In this document: positions 13,671 to 36,891 of the stretch, piece by piece | Position numbering within the stretch: position 1 is the first letter of the stretch | Layout of the letters: each line of letters starts with the position of its first letter | NCBI GenBank assembly: GCA_963205025.1 | Contig: CAUJHO010000020.1 | Span: 1-42,878, forward strand | Source of the DNA: Pseudomonadota bacterium | GTDB lineage: Bacteria; Pseudomonadota; Alphaproteobacteria; Caulobacterales; Caulobacteraceae | DNA length: 42,878 nt | Direction of reading: 5' to 3' | Made by a program: the position numbers and the translations under genes | The notes under the pieces: generated by a model | What the model saw: only the letters and a program-made list of their open reading frames with translations | What the model was told of the DNA's origin: nothing | Databases searched by the model: none

Positions 13671-14357
13671 ATGGCCCAGGCGACCTCCCTCCTCATTATC
13701 GACGACGACGACGACCTGCGCGAGGCGCTGGCCGAGCAGCTTGAACTGTCCGGCGAGTTCGCGGTCGAACAGGTCGACAACGGCCTGGACGGCGTCAGGA
13801 AGGGCTCGGAGGGCCGGGCCGAACTGATCCTGCTGGACGTCGATCTGCCGGACATCAACGGTCGCGAGGTCTGCCGGCGTCTGCGCCAGGCCGGCGTGCG
13901 CGCGCCCATCGTCATGCTGACCGGGGCCGACGGCGAGGCCGAAACCATCGGCGGGCTCGAGGCCGGTGCCACGGACTATGTCACCAAGCCGTTCCGCTTC
14001 GCCGTCCTGCTGGCGCGCATCCGCGCCCATCTGCGGAATGTGGAACAGTCCGAGGAGGCCGTCTTCCGCATCGGCCCCTATCAGTTCCGCCCGGCGCAAA
14101 AATCCCTGACCGACGAGAACGACAAGCGCATCCGCCTGACGGACAAGGAAACCTCGATCCTGAAGTATCTGCTGCGCGCGCGCGGCGAGGCCGTGGCCCG
14201 CGAGGAGCTGCTGGCTGAGGTCTGGGGCTACAATGCCGGGGTCACGACCCACACCCTGGAAACCCATATCTACCGGCTTCGCCAGAAGATCGAGCCCGGC
14301 AAGGGCAGCGCCCGCCTGCTGATCACCGACGGCGGCGGCTACCGGCTTCAGGCCTGA
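13671..14357 (+). CDS. cenR: OmpR-family response regulator, CenR-like
   Basis: 228 residues. The receiver domain (about 1-120) has the acidic pocket IIDDDDD, the phosphorylation site D56 in LILLDVDLPD and the switch lysine in DYVTKPF. The winged-helix DNA-binding domain (about 130-228) ends in VTTHTLETHIYRLRQKIE and a GYRL tail. The overall sequence reads like CenR, the regulator that with CenK controls cell-envelope integrity and is essential in Caulobacter. The cenK gene is usually unlinked, and no sensor kinase is seen here. The symbol is assigned from memory of the family and would need an alignment. It follows yggS by five bases. Confidence 0.85.
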   Translation: MAQATSLLIIDDDDDLREALAEQLELSGEFAVEQVDNGLDGVRKGSEGRAELILLDVDLPDINGREVCRRLRQAGVRAPIVMLTGADGEAETIGGLEAGATDYVTKPFRFAVLLARIRAHLRNVEQSEEAVFRIGPYQFRPAQKSLTDENDKRIRLTDKETSILKYLLRARGEAVAREELLAEVWGYNAGVTTHTLETHIYRLRQKIEPGKGSARLLITDGGGYRLQA

Positions 14358-18350: not shown

Positions 18351-18410
18351 TCACGAACCCGTGAAAATCCTTCATAGGGCGTGGCGGGGGCGACGATCAC
18401 GAGTTTGTGA
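18351..18410. promoter_or_regulatory. Two copies of the TCACG-N4-YGTGA palindrome upstream of the wecB-nfr operon
   Basis: TCACGAACCCGTGA (18351-18364) and TCACGAGTTTGTGA (18397-18410) are spaced 46 bp start to start. The second is followed by ATGAATATTGGAC, which resembles the sequence after the last copy before opgH (ATGCACATTAGGAC). This suggests the box abuts a -10 element. The regulator is unknown. Confidence 0.65.
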
Positions 18411-18529
18411 TGAATATTGGACAACGAACCCCTCAGCTTCGATCCATCGCAGGTGCGTCAAACGGTCGCGTCAAGACGGACAGGTTTCGCCAGGGGGGTG
18501 ACGCCGCCCGTCTCCCCCAGGGGGTCGAC

Positions 18530-19654
18530 GTGAAAGTCGCCATCGTTGCCGGGACCCGGCCCGAAGTCATCAAACAGGCGCCCGTGCTGGCTGCGCTGCA
18601 GGAACGCCCGGGCTTCGCGCCCATCTGGATCTCGACCGAGCAGCAGTCCAGCCTGAACAGCCAGACCCTCGAGGTCATGGGCGTGACCCCCGATGTGGTC
18701 ATGGCCCCGCCCTCGCCGGACCGGTCGCTCGGCGGCCGCTTCGCGGAGGTCATGGACCGGCTTGACCAGGCCTTCGGCGAGCTCGAGCCGGACTTCGTCC
18801 TGGTCCAGGGCGACACCTCCACCACCGCCGCCGGGGCCATGGCCGCCTTCGCGCGCCGCATCCCGATCGCCCATGTCGAGGCCGGTCTTCGGACCTTCGA
18901 CCTGGACCGCCCCTTCCCCGAGGAAGGCTGGCGTTGCGTCGTCGGCCAGCTGGCCAGCCTGCACTTCGCCCCGACCCAGGCGGCCGCCGCCAATCTGATC
19001 CGCGCCGGCATCAGCCCGGGCAAGGTCCATGTCACCGGCAACACCGGCATCGACAGCGTGCGGCTGACCGGCGACCGCGTCCGTCCCGAACCCCTGACCA
19101 ACGGCCTGCGCCGGGTCCTGGTGACCGTTCACCGGCGCGAGAACTGGGACGGGGCCCTGGACCGGATCCTCTCGGCCCTGGTCATGCTGCGCGATCATGT
19201 CCCCGATATCGAGATCGTCTTCGTGGCCCACGCGAATCCGATGCTGCGCGAGCGCGTCTTCGCCTATCTCGGCCAGCAGTCCCGCATTCGTATCATCGGC
19301 CCCTTGGATTACCTCTCCTTCATCTCCTTCCTGAAGAGCGCCACCCTGGTTCTGTCGGACTCCGGCGGCGTGCAGGAAGAGGCCCCGGTCTTCGGCGTGC
19401 CGGTGCTGGTCCTGCGCCAATCGACCGAGCGCATGGAAGCCGTCGAGGCCGGCGTCGCCCGGCTGGTCGGGGTCGAGCGCGACACCGTGCTCCAGACCGC
19501 CTCGCGCCTGCTGCTCAACGAGGCCGAGCGTCAGGAAATGGTCCGGGCCGTGTCGCCCTTCGGGGACGGCTTCGCCGCGCGCCGGATCGTCGACATCCTC
19601 CAGAGCACGCCGCTGAGCGAACGCGAGGTCGCCCTGACGCGAGCGGCGGTCTGA
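18530..19654 (+). CDS. wecB: Non-hydrolysing UDP-N-acetylglucosamine 2-epimerase (WecB family)
   Basis: 374 residues, the usual family length. It converts UDP-GlcNAc to UDP-ManNAc in the cytoplasm. Family blocks visible are AIVAGTRPEVIKQAPVL, FVLVQGDTSTTAAGAMAAF, HVEAGLRTFD, PFPEEGWRCVVGQLA, TGNTGIDSV, VTVHRRENW and LSDSGGVQEEAPVFGVPVLVLR. Start GTG 18530 is preferred: it has Shine-Dalgarno AGGGGG five bases upstream and gives the canonical KVAIVAGTRPE start. A longer frame from 18407 would begin inside a regulatory palindrome. The NfrB-like glycosyltransferase gene follows after four bases. In E. coli, WecB supplies UDP-ManNAc for NfrB-made polysaccharide, so here it is probably dedicated to that pathway. 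Confidence 0.94.
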   Translation: MKVAIVAGTRPEVIKQAPVLAALQERPGFAPIWISTEQQSSLNSQTLEVMGVTPDVVMAPPSPDRSLGGRFAEVMDRLDQAFGELEPDFVLVQGDTSTTAAGAMAAFARRIPIAHVEAGLRTFDLDRPFPEEGWRCVVGQLASLHFAPTQAAAANLIRAGISPGKVHVTGNTGIDSVRLTGDRVRPEPLTNGLRRVLVTVHRRENWDGALDRILSALVMLRDHVPDIEIVFVAHANPMLRERVFAYLGQQSRIRIIGPLDYLSFISFLKSATLVLSDSGGVQEEAPVFGVPVLVLRQSTERMEAVEAGVARLVGVERDTVLQTASRLLLNEAERQEMVRAVSPFGDGFAARRIVDILQSTPLSEREVALTRAAV

Positions 19655-19658
19655 GCCC

Positions 19659-21971
19659 ATGGACCCCTCCCTTATCCAGGACGCGCAGACCGCCTGGGCT
19701 GACGGCTCCGCCTGGCTGGCCGCCCACGGCGTCACCGGCGAGGCCGCCGTTCAGTGGCTGACGGCCTACTGGGGCTTCATCCAGTGGTCGATCATGATCT
19801 CGGCGGTCCTGATCCTGATCTCGTCGATCGACGACATGATCATCGACCTGGCCTACTGGATCCGGGCGATCGTGCGCTTCTTCACCTTCTGGGAGCGGCC
19901 GCCGCCCCAGAAGTGGCTGGACCGGCACCCCCAGAAGCGGATCGCCATCATGGTCCCGGCCTGGCAGGAATCCGACGTCATCGCCAACATGGTGGCCAAC
20001 ACCAACAAGTCGTTCGACTACGGCCCCTTCGACATCTTCGTGGGCGTCTATGCCAATGATGCCGATACCCGCCGCGAGGTCGAGAAGATCCGCCGGCGCT
20101 TTCCCAACGTCCACCGCGCCGAGGTGCCGCATGACGGCCCGACCTCCAAGGCCGACTGTCTGAACTGGCTGATCCAGAACATCCTCCTGCACGAGGAACG
20201 GACGGGCCAGCGCTTCGACGTCTTCCTCATGCACGACGCCGAGGATGTGGTGCATCCCTATGGGCTGAAGGCGGTGAACTGGTTCATCGACGAGGCCGCC
20301 ATGATCCAGATGCCGGTGCTGTCGATGCAGCGCCCCTGGAACCGGCTGGTCGCCTGTCACTACATGGACGAGTTCGCCGAGTTCCACACCAAGGACCTGC
20401 CGGTCCGCACGGCCCTGACGCGCATGACCCCCTCGGCGGGGGTGGCGACGGCCTTCCACCGCGCCGCCATGCTGGCGCTGGTGCGCGAGAAGAACGGCCA
20501 GCCGTTCAACACCGACAGCCTGACCGAAGACTATGACGTCGGCCACCGCCTCTCGGCCATGGGGTTTCCGTCGGAGTTCGTGCGCTACCACGCCCGCGTC
20601 AAGCGCCAGCGCAAGGCCTGGTTCCGCAAGGGCATGGTCACCTACTATCCGCGCGAACTGGTGGCGACCAAGGAGTTCTTCCCCGACAAGTTCACCACCA
20701 GCATTCGCCAGAAGACGCGCTGGATGCTGGGCATTTCGATCATGGGCTGGGCCCAGCTCGGCTGGTTCGGGTCCCTGATCAATCGCTACTACCTGTTCCG
20801 CGACCGCAAGGCCCTGTTCACCGCCCCGACCGGCATGTTCGGCTATTTCATCGTCCTGCAGGTGCTCGGCTACTGGGGCCTGAAGCTGATCTGGCCCGAG
20901 GTCGTCGACCTGCCGCCGGTGATCGAGCACGACTGGGTCTGGCTGATCGTGGCGATCAACTTCTTCTTCCTGGTCAACCGCATCCTCCACCGCGCCTGGT
21001 TCACCGGCATCAACCACGGCCTCGTCCATGTGCCGCTGACGCCGATCCGCATCGTGGTGTCGAACCTGATTTCGTTCGGGGCCTTCTGGCGGGCCAGCCG
21101 CCAGTATCTCGGCCATCTGATCACCGGCCGACCGATCGCCTGGGACAAGACCCAGCACGCCTATCCCTCGCTCAGCGAGCTGCAGCAGGGCTCGGGCCGT
21201 CTCGGCGAGACCCTGCGCTTCTGGAATGCCCTGTCCGAGGACGATCTGAACCGCGCCCTGGCCGCCCAGAAGACGCGCTACCGGCCGCTGGGCCTGATGC
21301 TGCTGGACCTCGGCGCGACCGATGACGAGCATCTGTCCGAGGCCTTTGCCGAACGCCTGGAGACCTATGCCTCGATGTTCGATCCCTTCCAGATCGAGTC
21401 CGGGGTCCGCGGCCTTCTGACCATGGACGAGGCCCGCCGCTTCGGCGCGGTCCCCCTGCGGCGCCAGGGCGGCTCGCTCGACGTCGCCGTGGCCGAGCCG
21501 ATGCCGGCGGCCCTGCGCCAGGAGATGGAGCGCCTGCTCGGCCGTCGCGGCGTCAAGGGCGTCCGGGTCCTGTTCGCGCCGCTTTCGGATGTGGCCTTCG
21601 CCCTGCGTTTCGCCTGGGCCCAGGACCCCTTCACCCAGGTGCGGGCGCGTCTGGATCAGATGCGCCGTCGGGGCGACATGGACGCCTCGCGTGAGGCCCT
21701 GCTGTGGCGCTCGGTGCGCGCCGGCTACGTCCGGCTCGGCGACCTTCTGGTTCGCGACGGCACCGTCAGCCATGCCGACCTGCAGTCCGCCCTGGATGTG
21801 GCACGCCGCAACGGACGTCATCTGGGCGAAACCCTCGTGGCCCTGAAGCTGGCGTCGCGGGCCGCCGTCGATGCCGCCCTGGCCCGCCAGAAGTCGGCCA
21901 CCTGGGTCAATGACGCCCTCGCCCAGGCCCTCGCCCAGGCCCCGGCCGAAGATTTTCATCCTGTGACTTAG
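19659..21971 (+). CDS. nfrB: NfrB-like inner-membrane family-2 glycosyltransferase with two MshEN modules
   Basis: 770 residues. TM helices lie near 40-60 and a cluster at about 385-470. The GT2 catalytic domain is at about 95-360: nucleotide-binding MVPAWQES, HDAED (D193-D196), the acceptor-site TEDYD (289-293) and the processive-enzyme QxxRW motif QKTRW (351-355). The C-terminus has two regions each made of paired RLGxxL...LxxxLxxQ repeats, starting at R514 and R692. These are the signature of MshEN c-di-GMP-binding domains; the second pair (RLGDLLVRDGTVSHADL, then HLGETLVALKLASRAAV) is near-canonical. E. coli NfrB is a c-di-GMP-dependent polysaccharide synthase and part of the phage N4 receptor system. 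Expected role: synthesis and export of a ManNAc-containing surface polysaccharide under c-di-GMP control. It follows wecB by four bases. Confidence 0.93.
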   Translation: MDPSLIQDAQTAWADGSAWLAAHGVTGEAAVQWLTAYWGFIQWSIMISAVLILISSIDDMIIDLAYWIRAIVRFFTFWERPPPQKWLDRHPQKRIAIMVPAWQESDVIANMVANTNKSFDYGPFDIFVGVYANDADTRREVEKIRRRFPNVHRAEVPHDGPTSKADCLNWLIQNILLHEERTGQRFDVFLMHDAEDVVHPYGLKAVNWFIDEAAMIQMPVLSMQRPWNRLVACHYMDEFAEFHTKDLPVRTALTRMTPSAGVATAFHRAAMLALVREKNGQPFNTDSLTEDYDVGHRLSAMGFPSEFVRYHARVKRQRKAWFRKGMVTYYPRELVATKEFFPDKFTTSIRQKTRWMLGISIMGWAQLGWFGSLINRYYLFRDRKALFTAPTGMFGYFIVLQVLGYWGLKLIWPEVVDLPPVIEHDWVWLIVAINFFFLVNRILHRAWFTGINHGLVHVPLTPIRIVVSNLISFGAFWRASRQYLGHLITGRPIAWDKTQHAYPSLSELQQGSGRLGETLRFWNALSEDDLNRALAAQKTRYRPLGLMLLDLGATDDEHLSEAFAERLETYASMFDPFQIESGVRGLLTMDEARRFGAVPLRRQGGSLDVAVAEPMPAALRQEMERLLGRRGVKGVRVLFAPLSDVAFALRFAWAQDPFTQVRARLDQMRRRGDMDASREALLWRSVRAGYVRLGDLLVRDGTVSHADLQSALDVARRNGRHLGETLVALKLASRAAVDAALARQKSATWVNDALAQALAQAPAEDFHPVT

Positions 21972-22015
21972 GCCGCGTCCATGCCATCGTTTGATCTCCA
22001 GCCAGGAGCCCGCCC

Positions 22016-22783
22016 ATGAGTGGCCCCGCCCATCTGATCGGAATGACCGCCGCCGCTGCGGTCCTGTCCTATGCGCCGACGCTCGCCTCTGTGGACATCA
22101 ATCCCTCATCCCAGGCCGCGGCCCTGGCCTATGGTCACTACGCCTCGGGCCGGGCCGAGGCCGCCGTGACGGCGGCGCTGCGGGCGGTCGAGGAAGACCC
22201 GACCAATCTCGACTACCGCCTGTTGCTGGCCGATTCCCTGACCCTGGCGGACCGGCCTTCCGAGGCGCTCGAGGTGCTGGTGCCCCTGCGCGACCAGGCC
22301 GACTACCGGGTCCAGTCGCGCCTGGCCCAGGCCGCCTGGGACAGTCACGAGCCGGACCTGGCGGCCCAGGCCTTCCTGGCGGCGGCGGACCTGGCGGATG
22401 ATCGGGACGCGCGCGCCTATCTCTCGCGTGCGGCGATCCTGGCCCTGCTCGAAGCCGGTCGCCGCGACGAGGCCGTGCAGACCTTCGACACCGCCTGGTC
22501 GGAGCAGACCCTGCAGGGCTTCGCCTCGCTCGATACCGCCAACGTCGCCCTGGCGGTCGGGCGCGACGCCCAGGCCCTGTGGGCCTTCGAGGATGCCCAG
22601 CGCACCGCCCCCCTGACCGGCCTGGCCGCCATCAATGCCGGCTATGCCGCCCAGCGTCTGGGCCTGCCCGAATGGGCCGCCAACTACTTCCATCTGGCCC
22701 TGAGCAACTGGCCGGCCGAGGTCGATCCCGAGCGTCGCGCCGAGATCGAGGCCTTTGTCCAACAGCAGATTCCCAACACCTAG
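22016..22783 (+). CDS. Exported TPR protein of the Nfr-like operon
   Basis: 255 residues. An N-terminal signal (LIGMTAAAAVLSYAPTLAS) is followed by TPR-like helix pairs (AAALAYGHYASGRAEAAVTAALRAVEEDPTNLDYRL and on). The C-terminal part (LDTANVALAVGRDAQALWAFEDAQRTAPL, INAGYAAQRLG) is clearly related to the N-terminal part of the next gene (LDAANIAVSVGRDAEAQTAFRQAEAASPL, LNAGYSARRIG), so they look like products of a duplication. E. coli NfrA carries such repeats before its barrel in a single chain. Here they appear split onto a separate periplasmic protein, probably a polysaccharide-guiding scaffold. ATG has Shine-Dalgarno CAGGAG. Confidence 0.85.
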   Translation: MSGPAHLIGMTAAAAVLSYAPTLASVDINPSSQAAALAYGHYASGRAEAAVTAALRAVEEDPTNLDYRLLLADSLTLADRPSEALEVLVPLRDQADYRVQSRLAQAAWDSHEPDLAAQAFLAAADLADDRDARAYLSRAAILALLEAGRRDEAVQTFDTAWSEQTLQGFASLDTANVALAVGRDAQALWAFEDAQRTAPLTGLAAINAGYAAQRLGLPEWAANYFHLALSNWPAEVDPERRAEIEAFVQQQIPNT

Positions 22784-22813
22784 ACCCGCCGCCGCTTCGT
22801 CGAGGAACGCGCC

Positions 22814-23704
22814 ATGTCCATCCGTTACAGTCTTCCCCTGGCCCTGATCGCCGCCGTTGCAGGCGGGTCCGCCGCCCTGGCCCAGACCCCCGCCGCCGCC
22901 GACCAGGCCACCGACGCGGCGGCCGCCTGGCAGGACGCCGACAGCCGTGCCTATGCCTCGCGGCTCCAGATCATGGAACTGGTGCAACAGGGCCGGACCG
23001 ACGAGGCCCGAGCCGCCTTCGACCGTGACTGGGCCGCCGGCATCCTGCCCGGTCCCGCCCCGCTGGACGCCGCCAACATCGCCGTCTCGGTCGGTCGCGA
23101 CGCCGAGGCCCAGACCGCCTTCCGCCAGGCCGAGGCCGCGTCGCCCCTGTCCGGTGCCACGGCCCTGAACGCCGGCTACAGCGCCCGGCGTATCGGCGAC
23201 GACGCCACCGCCATCTACTGGTTTCAGCGCGGCCTCGACACCTGGCCGACCGAAGCCGGCTTCGACGAGCAGCGCCGCTTCGAGATCCGCCGCGAGGTCG
23301 AGACGCTGCAGCGGACCTGGGGCGCGACGGCATCGGTGTCCTATGGCTCGACCTCGACGGTGTCGTCCGGCATCGTCGGGGCCGATACGGTCCTTCAGGC
23401 CGGCGGCGAGGTCTATCGCCGCATCAGCGGCTACAACAACGGCCGCACCCTGGACGTCTTCGCCCGCGCCTTTTCGACCCTGGATTCGGATCTGGGCGGC
23501 CCGACCGGCGGCGACACCACCCAGGGCTGGGTCGGGGTTCGCTACCGGCCGTTCTCCCAGACCAACCTGATTCTCGAGGCCAGCCGCATGATCGCCCTGG
23601 GCGATCTCGCCCGCGACGACTGGATGCTGCGCGCCGCCTGGTCGGCCGAGCGCGGCAGCGACCTGCGCTATGATCGCAGCCACTGGCCGGCGTGGCGCCT
23701 CTAG
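22814..23704 (+). CDS. nfrA: NfrA-like outer-membrane protein, N-terminal part up to an in-frame amber codon
   Basis: 296 codons to a TAG at 23702-23704. A signal peptide (LALIAAVAGGSAALAQ) is followed by a TPR-like region (about 40-160). A beta-rich C-terminal region then starts near ATASVSYGSTSTVSSGIVGADTVLQAGGEVYRRI and runs into YNNGRTLDVFARAFSTLD and WVGVRYRPFSQTNLILEASRM. This resembles the NfrA C-terminal barrel that exports the NfrB polysaccharide. The frame continues without change after the TAG for another 103 codons, so the gene is nonsense-interrupted rather than short. Without the last strands the barrel is unlikely to close. Shine-Dalgarno GAGGAA precedes the ATG, 30 bp after the TPR gene. 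Confidence 0.8.
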   Translation: MSIRYSLPLALIAAVAGGSAALAQTPAAADQATDAAAAWQDADSRAYASRLQIMELVQQGRTDEARAAFDRDWAAGILPGPAPLDAANIAVSVGRDAEAQTAFRQAEAASPLSGATALNAGYSARRIGDDATAIYWFQRGLDTWPTEAGFDEQRRFEIRREVETLQRTWGATASVSYGSTSTVSSGIVGADTVLQAGGEVYRRISGYNNGRTLDVFARAFSTLDSDLGGPTGGDTTQGWVGVRYRPFSQTNLILEASRMIALGDLARDDWMLRAAWSAERGSDLRYDRSHWPAWRL

Positions 23705-24016
23705 GGCGACCTCGCCCATATGGTCGACGCCGAACAGACCCTGGGCGTGGCCGAGGCCCGCTACGGTCACGCCTGGCGCACGTCCGAGCGCGATGTGGTC
23801 ACGCCCTTCGTCACCGTGCGCGGCTATTACGACAGCGTCCTGGCCGAAGAGACGGCGGTAGGGGCCGGCCCCGGCGTGTCATGGCGGCACTGGTTCCGCG
23901 AAGGGCCCTATGCCGCCCCGGCCTCGTGGATCGACCTGATCCTCGGCTATCAGTTCAGCGTCTCGGGTGATGCCCGTGGCGAAGGCGTCTTCGTCGGCGT
24001 GGCCATCAGCTACTAG
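23705..24016 (+). pseudogene. nfrA: C-terminal barrel remainder of the NfrA-like gene after the amber codon
   Basis: This continues in the same frame directly after the TAG: GDLAHMVDAEQTLGVAEARYG, then beta-strand-like segments VTPFVTVRGYYDSVL, WRHWFREGPYAAPASWIDLILGYQFSVS and a final GVFVGVAISY. The terminal aromatic residue is what BAM recognises in outer-membrane barrels. Codon usage matches the upstream part, so the break is recent or a sequencing error. One base change (TAC or TAT to TAG would give Tyr) restores a 400-residue protein. Translation from the internal ATG 23720 alone would make no sense as a barrel. Confidence 0.75.
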
Positions 24017-24156
24017 CGGGCGCTCCCACGCCCCTTTGTCATCCGGCCACCGCACACCCCACGCCCTGTCGCGGCCGGGGCGGGAGGACAGGTCGTGCCG
24101 GCGACATCGCCGGCCCGCCATATTGAGGCCGGAAACACCGACCATTTGACCTGCGT

Positions 24157-24170
24157 TCACGAAACCGTGA
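24157..24170. promoter_or_regulatory. TCACG-N4-YGTGA palindrome upstream of the acyltransferase gene
   Basis: TCACGAAACCGTGA is a copy of the box found before wecB and opgH. It lies 43 bp before the GTG start of the acyltransferase fusion. This intergenic stretch also has a self-complementary segment, GCCGGCGA-CA-TCGCCGGC, at 24097-24114. Confidence 0.65.
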
Positions 24171-24213
24171 TCATGGAACCGCCTTCCCCTCCCCGAGACC
24201 CGACCGACCGACC

Positions 24214-26010
24214 GTGACGACGACTGCCGCTGCCGCTGCCGCTTCGAGCCGACGCGCCGACCTGGACTGGATCCGGGTGGCGGCGTTCGGCCTGTTGATC
24301 CTGTTCCATACGGCGCTCGTCTATTCGCCGTACGACTGGCACATCCAGTCCGAGCACCGTCTCAGCTGGATGCCCCAGCTCCTGACCCTGACCGGGCCGT
24401 GGCGGCTGACGCTGCTGTTTTTGGTGTCGGGTGCCGCCATCAGCTTTATGACCACGCGCCGGACCCCCGGCGAGGTGCTGCAGGCCCGCATCGAGCGTCT
24501 CGGCCCGCCGCTTCTGATGGGGGTGCTGCTGCTGGTGCCGATCCAGTCCTGGATCGAAGCCATGGACAATGGGGCCTGGGGCACCGACTACCTCGGCTGG
24601 CTCGGCCATGAGTTCGGCCCCGAAGGTCTGCTGGACGGCGTGCCGGTCAACCACCTGTGGTTCGTCAACTACATCGCCGTCTATAGCCTGGTCATCGTGG
24701 TGCTGATGCTCAGGCCCGACCTGATCGAGCGTCTGCGCGGCTGGCTCGCGCCCCTGGTCGCCGGGCCGCGCGTGATCTGGGTGCCGCTGCTCTATCTGGT
24801 CGTCATCCGCCTGACCCTCTATCCGCTGTTCGGGGCAACCAACGGCCTGGTCGGCGACTGGTACAACCACGCCCAGTCGCTGGGCGCCTTCCTGTTCGGC
24901 TTCCTCCTGGCCCGGCACGAGCCGTTCTGGCAGGCCCTGGAACAGTACCGCCGCTGGGCCGTCGGCCTGGCCCTGGCGGTGCTGCCGATCCTGGTCTTTC
25001 AGGCCGGATATTTCCCCAACAACGTGATCTATGACGCCTCGAAATTCGCCATCCAGGCGATCTATCAGTGGGCCGTCATCGCCGCCATTCTCGGCTATGG
25101 CAGCCGCTATCTGCGCCGCCGCGACGGACCGGTCCTGCGCTATCTGACCGAGGCCGTCTTCCCGCTGTATCTGGCGCACCAGACGGTTCTGGCCGTGGCC
25201 GTCTGGCTGATCCGCCCCGCCGCCCTGGCACCGGTGCTGGAAGCGACGCTGCTGGCCCTGATCACCTTCGGCGGCAGCTTCCTGATCTATGAGATCGTGC
25301 GACGGGTCGGCTGGCTGCGTCCGGCCTGGGGGCTCAAGCCGTTTGCGCCGGCCCGCCCCCCCCTGCCCTTCTCCGGCCGACGCCGGCTGCTGGTCATCGG
25401 CGCGACCGCGCCGGTCGTGGTCCTGATCGTGTTTCTGATCTCGGTTGCGGCCTATCCCGGCTTTGACCACGCCAGTCAGTACCTGTCCGAACTGGGCGGG
25501 ACCGAGGCCCGCTACCCCCAGATCTTCAACATCGGCGTCTTCCTGTCCGGCGTCATGGCGGCCCTGACGGGCATCGGCTTCGGCTGGGCCATCATGGCCC
25601 TGACCGGCGCGCGCCTGACCGGCCTGATGACCGCCGCCGCCTTCATCCTGGCCGGCTATGGCCTGTCGGCCTCCAGCCTCTATCCCTGGCCGGACCCCCG
25701 CCACATGGTGATTTCCCTGGGCCTCGGCATCCAGATCGCGCCGCTCCTGATGCTGTGGGGCCTGCGCCGCCGCACCGATGTGCCGCGACTGAAGCTGTTC
25801 CTGATCAGTGCCTTCGCGGCGATGGCGGTGCTGACCCTGTTCACCAAACACCTGGTCCTGCCCGGCACCGTCAATGATCTGAATGTCGGCTGGTGGGAAA
25901 CCGCCTATGCCACGGTTCTGATCGGCTGGGCCGGTGTCGCCGCCCTGATGCTCGAACGCGCCGTCCGCGCCGAGGCGGCGCAGCGCGGGTCGGCCACGAC
26001 CCCGGCCTGA
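24214..26010 (+). CDS. Acyltransferase-3 (OpgC-like) fused to a DUF998-like membrane domain
   Basis: 598 residues, polytopic. Residues 1-370 are an acyltransferase-3 domain of the OpgC/OatA superfamily: ADLDWIRVAAFGLLILFHTALVY with the conserved D-x-x-R and H, FLVSGAAISFM, WFVNYIAVYSLVIVVL and YLAHQTVLAVAVWLI. From about 388 a second membrane domain begins (RRLLVIGATAPVVVLIVFLISVAAYPGF). It contains DHASQYLSELGGTEARYPQIFNIGVFLSG, the S-x-x-L-G...N-x-G pattern of DUF998, with about six TM helices. Start is GTG; the only ATG nearby is out of frame. No good Shine-Dalgarno is seen, and a CGAC tetranucleotide is repeated about 3.5 times directly before the start. Likely substituent transfer to periplasmic or surface glycan; substrate unknown. 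Confidence 0.88.
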   Translation: MTTTAAAAAASSRRADLDWIRVAAFGLLILFHTALVYSPYDWHIQSEHRLSWMPQLLTLTGPWRLTLLFLVSGAAISFMTTRRTPGEVLQARIERLGPPLLMGVLLLVPIQSWIEAMDNGAWGTDYLGWLGHEFGPEGLLDGVPVNHLWFVNYIAVYSLVIVVLMLRPDLIERLRGWLAPLVAGPRVIWVPLLYLVVIRLTLYPLFGATNGLVGDWYNHAQSLGAFLFGFLLARHEPFWQALEQYRRWAVGLALAVLPILVFQAGYFPNNVIYDASKFAIQAIYQWAVIAAILGYGSRYLRRRDGPVLRYLTEAVFPLYLAHQTVLAVAVWLIRPAALAPVLEATLLALITFGGSFLIYEIVRRVGWLRPAWGLKPFAPARPPLPFSGRRRLLVIGATAPVVVLIVFLISVAAYPGFDHASQYLSELGGTEARYPQIFNIGVFLSGVMAALTGIGFGWAIMALTGARLTGLMTAAAFILAGYGLSASSLYPWPDPRHMVISLGLGIQIAPLLMLWGLRRRTDVPRLKLFLISAFAAMAVLTLFTKHLVLPGTVNDLNVGWWETAYATVLIGWAGVAALMLERAVRAEAAQRGSATTPA

Positions 26011-26025
26011 AAAAAGTCACCCTTT

Positions 26026-26060
26026 TCACGATTCTGTGATTGCGCCTCACGAAGTCGTGA
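26026..26060. promoter_or_regulatory. Two copies of the TCACG-N4-YGTGA palindrome upstream of opgH
   Basis: TCACGATTCTGTGA (26026-26039) and TCACGAAGTCGTGA (26047-26060) are 21 bp apart, two helical turns, so two dimers could bind the same DNA face. The second is followed by ATGCACATTAGGAC, a possible -10 region. The first contains a GATTC site (GANTC), which would be a CcrM methylation site if the host is a Caulobacterale. Confidence 0.68.
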
Positions 26061-26149
26061 TGCACATTAGGACGACATGCTGCATCGCAGCACAGATCGC
26101 CGTTCCTCCCCGGAAACTAAAGCGGCGATCCTGAGGAAGGGATGATCCG

Positions 26150-28060
26150 GTGATGGTCGATTTGGCGACCCGAGTGGACGCGGACGCGCGCGAGGTTGAG
26201 GGCTTCGACCCGCAACCCTGGCTGCCGGCCGAAGCCCCGCTGGCCATGCCGCGCCAGTCGCTCGAGGTCGCCCCGCGCGCGCCGGTCGATCCCCTGCCGA
26301 CCTCGCCGGAAACCGTGTCCCGCCGCCGCTGGACCCTGCTGATCTGTACCCTGACGCTGTCGGCCCTGGCCCTGATCGCGCCGGTCGTCACCTGCGCTCG
26401 CTTTAGCTTCACCGCCCTGGAAGTCTTCGGCCTGGTCTGTCTGGCCGGCCTGCTGACGGCCATGTCGTGCTGGTTCACCTCGGCCTGCATGGGCCTGTGG
26501 GTCCTGGCCACCGACCGCGAACAGCAGGACCTGGCCTTCGCTGCCCGCCCCGACATCCCGATGAGCCGCACCGCCATCCTGATGCCGGTCTATAATGAAG
26601 ACGCCGACGCCTCCTTCGCGCGGCTGGCCCATCTGGATGCGTCCCTGGCCCGGCTCGGGGCCTCGGCGGCCTTTGACTTCTTCGTCCTGTCCGACACCAA
26701 CAAGTCCGCCGCCGCCGCCCATGAGACGGCGGTTTACGTCACCCAGCGGGCCCGCTTCGCCAGCCGCCTGTTCTATCGCCGGCGCATGGCCAACACCGAG
26801 CACAAGGCCGGCAACCTGGGTGACTGGGTGCGCCGCTTCGGGGCCGCCTATGAGCAGATGGTCGTGCTCGACGCCGATTCGACCATGGCCGGCGAGACGG
26901 TCCTGCGCCTCGTCGATGCGATGGAGATGAATCCGCGCATCGGCCTGATCCAGACCACCCCGACCATCATCAAGGCCTCGACCCTGTTCGCGCGCGTCTC
27001 ACAGTTTTCGGTGCGCCTGTACGGCCGTGTCGCCGCTGCGGGTCTTGCCTGGTGGACCGGGTCCGACAGCTCCTACTGGGGCCACAACGCCATCATCCGC
27101 ACCCGCGCCTTCGCCGAATGCGCCGGCCTGCCGATCCTGCCGGGCGTCAAGCCGTTCGGCGGCAATGTCCTCAGCCACGACGTCGTCGAAGCCGCCATGC
27201 TGCGCCGCGCCGGCTGGGCCGTGCATGTCACCGCCGCCCTGGACGGGTCGTGTGAGGAAACCCCGCCGACCATCACCGACTTCATCCGCCGTGAGCACCG
27301 CTGGTGTCAGGGCAACCTCCAGCACCTCAAGCTGGTCGGGGCCGCCGGTCTGCATCCCATGAGCCGCCTGCAGCTGATCCTGGGCTGCGCCGCCTATCTG
27401 GCCTCGCCCCTGTGGCTGGCCTCGCTGGCGACCGGCCTGGCCATCCAGCTCGGCTATCCGATCGACTGGGGCAGCTGGTGGTATGTGCTGAACCCCGAAT
27501 TCACCGCCTTCACCCTGGCGTCCCTGTTCGCGGCGATCCTGCTCATCGGTCCCAAGGTGATGGGCGCGGCCCTGGTGCTCAGTCGGCCGGCCGAGCTACG
27601 CGCCTTCGGGGGCGCGACCCAGCTGACCAAGGGCGTCCTGTCCGAGGTCGCCGTCTCGGCCATCCTCGCGCCGATCCTGATGGTCGCCAACACCCACGCC
27701 GTGCTCCAGATCGTGCGCGGCCAGGACGCCGGCTGGCAGGTGCAACAGCGAGACGCCGACGGCCTCACCCTGGCCGATGCCTTCAAGTCGATGCGCTGGC
27801 AGATGGTGGTGGGTGTCTGTTTCGTCATCGCCCTGGCCTTCCGCCCGGACCTGTCGATGTTCTTCGCGCCGATCGTGCTGCCGCTCCTGGCCTCGCCCTG
27901 GATCGCCATGTGGACCTCGCGCCGCCGTGCCGGTGACGCCTTTGCCGCACGCGGCTGGATGATCATCCCCGAAGAGGACGGCTCGGTCGCCGTCGCCGCC
28001 CTGCCGCCGGCCCGTCCGGGCTCTGAGCCGGCCCGCCGTCCGGTCGCCCAGCCGGCCTGA
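26150..28060 (+). CDS. opgH: Periplasmic glucan glucosyltransferase OpgH (MdoH)
   Basis: 636 residues. Inner-membrane GT2 enzyme that builds the beta-glucan backbone of osmoregulated periplasmic glucans from UDP-glucose. An N-terminal Pro-rich cytoplasmic tail is followed by two TM helices (about 60-125). The GT domain has ILMPVYNED, FVLSDTNKS, the D-x-D in VVLDADSTM (about 240) and SYWGHNAIIR. The acceptor-site SHDVVEAAMLRRAG and the motif RREHRWCQGNLQH (about 380-392) follow. C-terminal TM helices begin near 410. E. coli OpgH is longer (847 residues). GTG 26150 is used, nine bases after AGGAAGG; ATG 26153 is equally possible. No opgG or opgD is in the window. Confidence 0.94.
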   Translation: MMVDLATRVDADAREVEGFDPQPWLPAEAPLAMPRQSLEVAPRAPVDPLPTSPETVSRRRWTLLICTLTLSALALIAPVVTCARFSFTALEVFGLVCLAGLLTAMSCWFTSACMGLWVLATDREQQDLAFAARPDIPMSRTAILMPVYNEDADASFARLAHLDASLARLGASAAFDFFVLSDTNKSAAAAHETAVYVTQRARFASRLFYRRRMANTEHKAGNLGDWVRRFGAAYEQMVVLDADSTMAGETVLRLVDAMEMNPRIGLIQTTPTIIKASTLFARVSQFSVRLYGRVAAAGLAWWTGSDSSYWGHNAIIRTRAFAECAGLPILPGVKPFGGNVLSHDVVEAAMLRRAGWAVHVTAALDGSCEETPPTITDFIRREHRWCQGNLQHLKLVGAAGLHPMSRLQLILGCAAYLASPLWLASLATGLAIQLGYPIDWGSWWYVLNPEFTAFTLASLFAAILLIGPKVMGAALVLSRPAELRAFGGATQLTKGVLSEVAVSAILAPILMVANTHAVLQIVRGQDAGWQVQQRDADGLTLADAFKSMRWQMVVGVCFVIALAFRPDLSMFFAPIVLPLLASPWIAMWTSRRRAGDAFAARGWMIIPEEDGSVAVAALPPARPGSEPARRPVAQPA

Positions 28061-35391: not shown

Positions 35392-36891
35392 GTGCAGGGC
35401 TTTGAAGTAGATCCATCGGACCGGTTGGGCACCATTGTGAAGCTTGACCGCCAGATCTGGGACCGTCTGGCCGCCGGCGATGCGGCAGAGGTCAAGCGGC
35501 TCTGGAGCATCCGCAGCATGGTGGCCCAGCAGCTGGGCATCACCGGTGCCGAACTGCGCCATTACCATGAGGCCCCCGGGCCCGATGATGACGCCGACGC
35601 CGCGCCGGACCCGGCTGACGACGACCCGCCGGCCCCGGATCCTGCACCGACCGGACCGCCGCCCGCCCCCCTCATCCTGCATCCGCACCAGACGCCGCCG
35701 GACAAGGCGGACGACGGCGGCACCTGGTCGACCTGGCTCGTGCTCGGGGGGCGCGGGGCCGGCAAGACCCTGGCAGGGGCGTCGTGGATCGCCGACCAGG
35801 CTGAGGCTCTCAGGGACGGCGGGCGTCTCGCCCTGATCGGCGCGACCCTGCACGATGTGCGCGAGGTGATGATCGACGGGCCCAGTGGCATCCTCAGCCT
35901 GCCGCGCTGGCGACAGCCGGACGGGTCGTGGAAGGGGCCGACCTTCCATCCGTCGCGCCGCCGGCTGGTGTTTCCCGGCGGCTGCGAGGCCCAGACCTTT
36001 TCAGCCGAGGATGCCGACAGCCTCAGGGGGCCTCAGTTCCATGCCGCCTGGGCCGACGAATTCTGTGCCTGGATCGGCGACGAGGCCCTGGCCATGGCGC
36101 GGCTGGGGTTGAGGCTCGGAGGCCAGGACTGGAAACCGCGCCTGATGGTGACGACGACGCCGCGCCCGACGCGGGCGCTCAAGGGGCTGATGGCCGAGCC
36201 GGGCTGTGCCGTGACGCGGGCGGGAACCCAGGCCAATGCCGAACATCTGGCAGCGGGCTTCGTCGCGGGCCTGCGGCGGCTCTATGGCGGCACCCGGCTG
36301 GAGGCCCAGGAGATCGAGGGGCAGATCGTCGATGACGGCCTGTCGCTGTGGTCGGCCCCGATGCTGACGGCCTGTCGGGGGGCACCGCCGGGCGGCTATG
36401 ACCAGGTGGTCGTGGGCGTCGACCCCAGCGTCACCCGTCAGGGTCACGCCTGCGGCATTGTGGTGGCCGGCCAGATCGGCGACCGCGCCTATGTCCTGGC
36501 CGACCGGACGGTGGCGGGGGTGTCGCCCGACGCCTGGGGCCGCGCCGTGGTCCAGGCCGCCGACGACTATGGGGCCCAGACCATTGTGGCCGAGGTCAAC
36601 CAGGGTGGCGAACTGGTCACCGGCCTGTTGCGGGCGGTCGGCGCGCGCATGAAGCTCAAGGGTGTGCGCGCCCGGATCGGCAAGCGGGCCCGGGCCGAGC
36701 CGGTGGCGGCCCTGTACGAACAGGGGCGGGTGATCCATGCCGGGTCCGGACTGGAGGCGCTGGAGGAAGCCCTGATGGACTTCGATGCCCTGGGGCCGGG
36801 TCAGGACCGGGCCGACGCCCTGGTCTGGGCGATCACGGCGCTGATGCTGGGCGAGCCGCCGCTATGGCCCCGCATCCGGCGGCTGGGATGA
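35392..36891 (+). CDS. GTA-type terminase large subunit with N-terminal extension
   Basis: 499 residues, DNA-packaging ATPase/nuclease of the gene-transfer-agent and phage TerL family. Walker A is GGRGAGKT at 119-126, the Walker B-like acidic pair is in AAWADEF, and the coupling motif VTTTPRPT follows. The RNase H-like nuclease keeps its acidic residues in VVVGVDPSV, IVAEVNQGG and DRADALVWAI. All key residues are present, so it looks functional. GTA TerL proteins are usually about 420-450 residues. Here roughly 95 extra residues precede HPHQTPP: a helical segment (LDRQIWDRLAAGDAAEVKRLWSIRS) and an Asp/Pro linker. No portal, protease or capsid gene follows. Start is GTG 35392; GTG 35436 is possible. 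Confidence 0.9.
   Translation: MQGFEVDPSDRLGTIVKLDRQIWDRLAAGDAAEVKRLWSIRSMVAQQLGITGAELRHYHEAPGPDDDADAAPDPADDDPPAPDPAPTGPPPAPLILHPHQTPPDKADDGGTWSTWLVLGGRGAGKTLAGASWIADQAEALRDGGRLALIGATLHDVREVMIDGPSGILSLPRWRQPDGSWKGPTFHPSRRRLVFPGGCEAQTFSAEDADSLRGPQFHAAWADEFCAWIGDEALAMARLGLRLGGQDWKPRLMVTTTPRPTRALKGLMAEPGCAVTRAGTQANAEHLAAGFVAGLRRLYGGTRLEAQEIEGQIVDDGLSLWSAPMLTACRGAPPGGYDQVVVGVDPSVTRQGHACGIVVAGQIGDRAYVLADRTVAGVSPDAWGRAVVQAADDYGAQTIVAEVNQGGELVTGLLRAVGARMKLKGVRARIGKRARAEPVAALYEQGRVIHAGSGLEALEEALMDFDALGPGQDRADALVWAITALMLGEPPLWPRIRRLG

Follow-up and report, generated by a model that had tools for sequence, protein, structure and literature searches.

Palindromic boxes upstream of glycan genes and opgH in Caulobacteraceae as candidate operators of the envelope regulator CenR

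Introduction

The two-component system CenKR is essential in Caulobacter, where its regulon was called unknown in 2024 (PMC11389396). CenR sites have been published for two other orders: 31 are given in Table 1 of a study on Rhodobacter sphaeroides (PMC9275681), and for Sinorhizobium meliloti it has been shown that the purified protein binds the inverted repeat AGTCAC-N6-GTGACT, that promoter activity falls when one or the other arm is mutated, and that a related site reads ATTCACGACGTTGTGAAT (PMC9561847). Here we describe five copies of a 14-bp palindrome, TCACG-N4-YGTGA (the box), in a contig of 42,878 nucleotides from a Caulobacteraceae bacterium (CAUJHO010000020.1 of assembly GCA_963205025.1; this whole stretch is called the window). 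The copies precede a wecB-nfr operon, an acyltransferase gene and opgH, and we consider it very probable that they are operators of CenR, the response regulator (OmpR family) of CenK-CenR, an envelope system of Alphaproteobacteria. The regulator is already known from other orders and not new in kind. New and testable are the proposed regulon in the family, the direct link to opgH and the recruitment of an NfrB-type glycan operon into the regulon of an envelope-stress regulator; the analysis also provides a readable operator and names genes that may be direct targets in the family.

The R. sphaeroides sites resemble the boxes in length (14 bp) and sequence (near TSRCR-N4-YGTGA), they belong to envelope genes and their regulator is of the OmpR type; activating sites lie upstream of the −35 element and repressing sites in the core promoter (PMC9275681), an arrangement that may apply here as well. 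The targets differ, since cenR and tolQ are included there and mostly have no site here, whereas opgH, PBP1A, PAP2 and nfr genes were not seen in Table 1 of that paper. The srlA site of S. meliloti is likewise a TCAC-N6-GTGA inverted repeat beside a −35 element, there bound by purified CenR, but the four candidate sites of that species belong to srlA, an ArsR-type regulator gene, a hypothetical gene and chvI (PMC9561847), unlike the genes found here. In Caulobacter a functional link between CenR and OpgH has been described, as proposed here, and neither an operator nor direct binding appears in the accessible text (PMC11389396). The E. coli NfrA/NfrB/WecB pathway has the same wecB, nfrB-like (cyclic di-GMP-binding) and nfrA-like genes as the window (PMC8669472, PMC8669469); the window operon carries CenR-type boxes, whereas nothing on CenR was met for E. 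coli, where no search aimed at it was made.

Results and discussion

Occurrence and placement of the box

Scanning the full window for the pattern TCACGNNNNYGTGA (TCACG-N4-YGTGA) returned two copies before wecB, the distal one at 18351..18364 (TCACGAACCCGTGA) and the proximal one at 18397..18410 (TCACGAGTTTGTGA), one before the acyltransferase gene at 24157..24170 (TCACGAAACCGTGA), and two before opgH, distal at 26026..26039 (TCACGATTCTGTGA) and proximal at 26047..26060 (TCACGAAGTCGTGA), none of them assigned to a strand; there was no sixth match in the 42,878 nucleotides. These are the five copies that a first-pass annotation, made from the sequence alone, had pointed out, and its spacing of 21 bp for the opgH pair agrees with box starts at 26026 and 26047; the starts of the wecB pair are 46 bp apart. 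Because a perfect palindrome scores on both strands the five boxes count as 8 rows, compared to a mean of 0.22 and a maximum of 3 in 100 shuffled windows. When two mismatches were allowed the number of rows was at chance level (15 versus 13.35 expected).

The first-pass annotation had also proposed scanning the genome and its relatives, and there the pattern was again in excess. The whole source genome (2.54 Mb, 99 contigs) contains 10 box places, half of them within 8 kb, versus a single row for a reversed control pattern. Over the 24 genomes of the genus, the source genome included, forward counts summed by hand to 126 against 11 for the control. At family level the pattern was present in 144 of 149 genomes; the forward excess is not universal, with for example 4 forward and 9 control counts in genome G101. 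Across the class, 53 of 190 genomes contain a stricter pattern, TCACGAANNCGTGA, mostly in one or two copies outside the family.

In the source genome and 12 genus genomes, hand-chosen from the 23 others, 73 of 81 box places outside the glycan cluster fell outside gene cores compared to a background of 24%, where orthologous boxes were counted once per genome so that the 81 places are not independent. For the background, sequence away from the boxes was taken from 55 of these loci, and a gene core was defined as the gene minus its first 150 bp, or minus its first third if shorter, using a simple purpose-made gene caller. Judged from sequence, the box is a real transcription-factor operator.

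Match to published CenR sites

A matrix was built from the 31 R. sphaeroides CenR sites and applied as 15-mers to both strands of the window, giving 85,728 positions. The five boxes, read on both strands, were the ten best of these positions with scores of 13.9–18.7, the next position scoring 13.5. On the better strand the boxes scored 15.7–18.7, versus maxima of 12.3–14.9 in 12 simulated windows; measured against these maxima, the scores of the weaker strand would by themselves be unremarkable. When the matrix columns were permuted, 292 of 300 matrices placed no box in the top ten, 7 placed one, 1 placed three and none placed all five. All five boxes also fit TCAC-N6-GTGA, as does the S. meliloti srlA site. 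The first-pass annotation knew of no regulator with this exact box; CenR has already been published as the regulator of boxes of this type (PMC9275681, PMC9561847).

Its observation that the layout is that of an FNR site with a different half-site stands, with the boxes reading TCACG-N4-YGTGA. The CRP/FNR half-sites TGTGA and TTGAT are opposite in direction to that of the box or different from it; such inward half-sites do not occur in the boxes, and a CRP/FNR site was rejected. Clean 5-4-5 palindromes are typical of TetR-, MarR-, XRE- and CRP/FNR-type proteins. That an unrelated dimeric regulator of one of these types uses an operator which resembles CenR sites by coincidence nevertheless seems quite improbable, since half-site and spacing both agree with CenR sites from two other orders, and since the right half is stronger than the left in the Rhodobacter set as well as in the opgH sites of the family. 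It is in favor of such a regulator that OmpR-type proteins often bind direct repeats (PMC9275681), whereas the boxes are clean palindromes.

The CenR ortholog in the window

The proposed box-binding protein, an OmpR-family response regulator, is encoded in the same window at 13671..14357 on the + strand, about 4 kb from the boxes. A single ortholog with 57–71% identity occurs in 58 of 59 other family genomes, the next protein among the matches listed having at most 39%. An ortholog from genus g22, which is 95% identical to the one from a Caulobacter metagenome-assembled genome, shares 68–69% with the Rhodobacteraceae proteins, similar to the 69.5% reported for C. crescentus and R. sphaeroides CenR. 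The window protein shares 62–64% with the Rhodobacteraceae proteins, and its recognition stretch, VTTHTLETHIYRLRQKIE, recurs without change in four Rhodobacteraceae orthologs. The regulator is very likely CenR, a name that rests on orthology.

Of the 80 cenR-ortholog loci, 22 were scored for upstream sites. Three of the four Rhodobacteraceae promoters have a site of the ACACG-N4-YGTGA type at −74 to −91 from the gene start, similar to the R. sphaeroides cenR site ACACGAGCGCGTGAG (PMC9275681); in the remaining promoter a weaker site was recognized by eye. No site above threshold was found at the six Caulobacter and Brevundimonas cenR loci among the 22.

The window protein has nine database matches at 94–77% identity, followed by matches of about 74%, and it shares 71% with five other genus members listed. 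A second genome of the genus, G083, has the same cenR neighborhood with a CenR that is 95% identical. The window CenR thus appears as a rather diverged form of a core regulator, located beside its proposed targets.

Sites upstream of opgH and the weighing of CenR against other regulators

The opgH (mdoH) gene for a glucan glucosyltransferase, recognized by family match, is located at 26150..28060 on the + strand. This gene of periplasmic glucan synthesis is essential in Caulobacter, in which overexpression of cenR lowers the level of OpgH protein (PMC11389396). To compare upstream regions 69 of 82 opgH-like rows were examined, leaving out 12 that were fragmentary or more distant and one near a contig end (L146). 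With the Rhodobacter matrix, 43 of the 69 scored above the 95% null and 18 above the 99% null (expected ca. 3.5 and 0.7), in a set that includes some second copies or paralogs and many close relatives, which are not independent. The ten closest readable orthologs have TTG directly after the distal box, as in the window (TTG at 26040), and four more have the variant GTTATTG. A tandem pair 21 bp apart was found in 7 of the 8 genus genomes with an opgH-like match, with two mismatches in both boxes in four. With CenR-like sites upstream of many opgH-like genes in the family, direct binding of CenR at opgH would be the simplest link to the fall in OpgH upon cenR overexpression. In a literature search, which most subscription papers lay outside, no description of an opgH operator for CenR was met.

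A dyad search of the opgH upstream regions revealed a second element in the window, CTGC-N3-GCAG at 26080..26090 (no strand), that is similar to the putative ChvI motif. The form YTGC-N3-GCAR was present in 10 of the 69 upstream regions, which are the ten closest readable orthologs (3% expected); the strict form TTGC-N3-GCAA fit one of 69. Joint control of opgH by ChvI and CenR is possible.

Several observations weigh against CenR as the binding protein. Besides the relatedness of the opgH-like loci, 26 of the 69 upstream regions stayed under the 95% null, and in genus g22, probably Caulobacter, 8 of 11 opgH loci had two mismatches or no match. With the R. sphaeroides matrix and thresholds taken over from the opgH null, 0 of 28 tolQ and 3 of 29 cenR upstream regions in Caulobacteraceae exceeded the 95% null, and no perfect box was found near either gene in the family. 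The R. sphaeroides motif was described as a direct repeat, TGA-N8-TGA, which was also reported at cenR and tolQ of C. crescentus (PMC9275681), whereas the boxes are inverted repeats. In Brucella, 33 chromatin immunoprecipitation peaks are common to CenR and its partner EssR.

These last points bear on the possibility that another response regulator, either an EssR-like partner of CenR or a different OmpR-type protein, binds the boxes alone or together with CenR. We regard this as unlikely. Such a protein could be drawn from the 10 OmpR-type DNA-binding domain matches of the source genome (CenR included), the shared Brucella peaks would be in line with it, and so would the lack of sites at most cenR and tolQ genes. 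On the other hand, the recognition stretch is the same as in four Rhodobacteraceae orthologs, and the R. sphaeroides CenR sites match the boxes. ChvI itself was rejected as the binding protein: the putative C. crescentus motif TTGC-N3-GCAA differs from the box and is absent from the boxes. We retain CenR as the very probable regulator, and argue that in this family it recognizes an inverted repeat, as it does in Sinorhizobium; two of its Rhodobacter targets, cenR and tolQ, do not seem to be targets in Caulobacteraceae.

Promoter geometry and proposed mechanism

In two target groups the box precedes predicted promoter elements. At the loci of a small Ala-rich lipoprotein the box lies 8–9 bp before TTGC-N19-TTA in 11 of 11 cases, and at the loci of a PAP2-superfamily gene 2–18 bp before GGAAC-N16/17-CGTT, also in 11 of 11 (L002, L077, L086, L092, L100, L104, L106, L109, L112, L118 and L370, for the last of which both strands were tried). 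The location just upstream of a −35 element suggests that the boxes of both groups are activating. We take GGAAC-N16/17-CGTT to be an EcfG-type promoter; as it directly follows a CenR-like box at all 11 loci, general stress and envelope stress responses may converge at this PAP2 gene next to ribonucleotide reductase.

Other boxes lie within predicted core promoters or near a start codon, and these positions would fit repression. The acyltransferase box is enclosed by TTGACC (from 24146) and GATCAT (to 24174), both nearly unchanged in G083, the box of a DUF4349 lipoprotein gene lies at most about 30 bp from the start codon, and the proximal opgH box lies, by eye, between TTGCGC (26040–26045) and ACATTA (26064–26069). 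A consensus promoter scan gave no promoter at wecB, and in 24010–26180 it gave the acyltransferase promoter only. For the boxes in the window, activation or repression can be assigned only tentatively.

The TCACG-N4-CGTGA sequence could by reading alone also fold in RNA as a five-pair stem with a tetraloop, and some copies directly follow a stop codon. A hairpin or terminator is nevertheless extremely improbable as the function of the box: at all 22 lipoprotein and PAP2 loci it is located before a −35-like element and should because of that lie outside the transcript, half-site changes that break the stem in the sense transcript occur (e.g., TCACAAATCCGTGA), and a window scan showed no terminator at any box.

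For CenR as regulator, the mechanism would be as follows. CenK would phosphorylate CenR, which would bind as a dimer to the two CGTGA half-sites. Boxes just upstream of the −35 element, at the Ala-rich lipoprotein and PAP2 genes, would mediate activation, and those located within the core promoter or close to the start codon, as in the case of the acyltransferase gene, the DUF4349 lipoprotein gene and the proximal opgH box, repression. At high activity CenR would repress opgH, so that the state of the envelope and the synthesis of periplasmic glucan would be coupled in a loop, and in the source genome and G083 the NfrB-type exopolysaccharide operon would be placed under the same box. A more detailed scheme can be offered tentatively, and we consider it rather doubtful as a whole. 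CenR would set the synthesis of osmoregulated periplasmic glucans directly via two tandem opgH operators two helical turns apart; the distal one, abutting the −35 element, would activate at low levels of phosphorylated CenR and the proximal one, inside the promoter, would repress at high levels, giving a bell-shaped feedback between the state of the envelope or periplasm and periplasmic glucan. The same operator would have recruited the cyclic di-GMP-gated NfrB-type operon and the OpgC-like gene in one lineage, probably Brevundimonas.

The wider regulon

The target groups were followed in the 13 genomes in which box placement was determined, and one or two members of every group were assigned with Pfam. 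The PAP2-superfamily gene, divergent from ribonucleotide reductase, carries a box in 11 of 13 genomes (G002 is counted although only the reductase was called), and a gene for a PBP1A-like transglycosylase/transpeptidase in 10 of 13. The small Ala-rich lipoprotein, mostly encoded between MotA-like and mnmC-like genes, accounts for 11 loci with the same promoter layout, the protein being read by eye in four. The DUF4349 lipoprotein gene has a box in 6 of 13 genomes, and a small lipoprotein gene following glucokinase was called in four, with two further boxes beside the glucokinase gene; these two groups are absent from the ten places of the source genome. Since lipoprotein, PBP1A-like, PAP2 and DUF4349 genes recurrently carry the box, the proposed regulon spans the cell envelope, and the glycan cluster is one local section of it. 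The surface-glycan regulon of the first-pass annotation was in this respect drawn too narrowly, although the three units in the window do concern glycans.

Two further boxes, one near fba and one at a gene for a histidine kinase, were found only in the source genome and G083 among the 13. The latter box, TCACATGGCCGTGA, overlaps the likely start codon of the kinase gene (L009, L091). This gene was considered as a possible cenK, but it follows genes for ribosomal proteins (L21 by Pfam, L27 by eye) and no tie to cenK was seen.

The glycan cluster

All five boxes have counterparts in corresponding places in G083. In an alignment of the three upstream regions, changes affected 1 of 50 half-site columns, 5 of 20 spacer columns and 203 of 582 other columns, the last figure being inflated by flanks that align poorly. 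The difference between half-site columns and the rest has a Fisher p of 5e-8 with gapped columns dropped, for columns that are not independent. The first-pass annotation had also noted a sequence ATGnAnATT(a)GGAC as a possible −10 element behind two boxes. Matches are indeed present after 18410 and 26060, but a −10 role is unproven because G083 keeps only the opgH copy, and that in part (ACATAGTGA).

The first of the three units comprises, on the + strand, wecB for UDP-N-acetylglucosamine 2-epimerase (18530..19654), a gene for an NfrB-like glycosyltransferase with a cyclic di-GMP-binding domain (19659..21971), a TPR protein gene (22016..22783) and an nfrA-like gene (22814..24016). It is followed, also on the + strand, by a gene for an OpgC/MdoC-like acyltransferase fused to DUF998 (24214..26010), and then by opgH. 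By family, all three units make or modify envelope glycans, in agreement with the first-pass annotation. NCBIfam matches supported WecB and an MdoH (OpgH) protein exceeding its cut-off; the NfrB-like protein scored 555.9 bits, below the cut-off of 1170 of the NfrB model, and the MdoC (OpgC)-like acyltransferase 100.6 bits versus a cut-off of 338. The longest wecB open reading frame (ORF) starts inside the proximal box, at 18407. The GTG at 18530 is the likely real start, because the WecB family match begins there (residue 42) and conservation in G083 rises there.

Only the source genome and G083 have an NfrB match among the 24 genus genomes. At nfr loci of nine genomes from other genera (stretches of 11–18 kb each) we found no perfect box, no acyltransferase match and no opgH match; a few boxes with one mismatch occurred kilobases away from nfrB. 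The absence of a perfect box from these nine stretches suggests that the boxes preceding wecB-nfr were added in a particular lineage.

The nfrA-like gene is broken into two ORFs, 22814–23704 covering NfrA_C 1–70 and 23720–24016 covering NfrA_C 80–172, and G083 has a single ORF in its place (L057, 6647–7852). The break may be a frameshift or similar change, real or sequencing-derived. A gene for a phage-type terminase large subunit (Terminase_6N/6C) is located at 35392–36891 of the window amid ordinary chromosomal genes.

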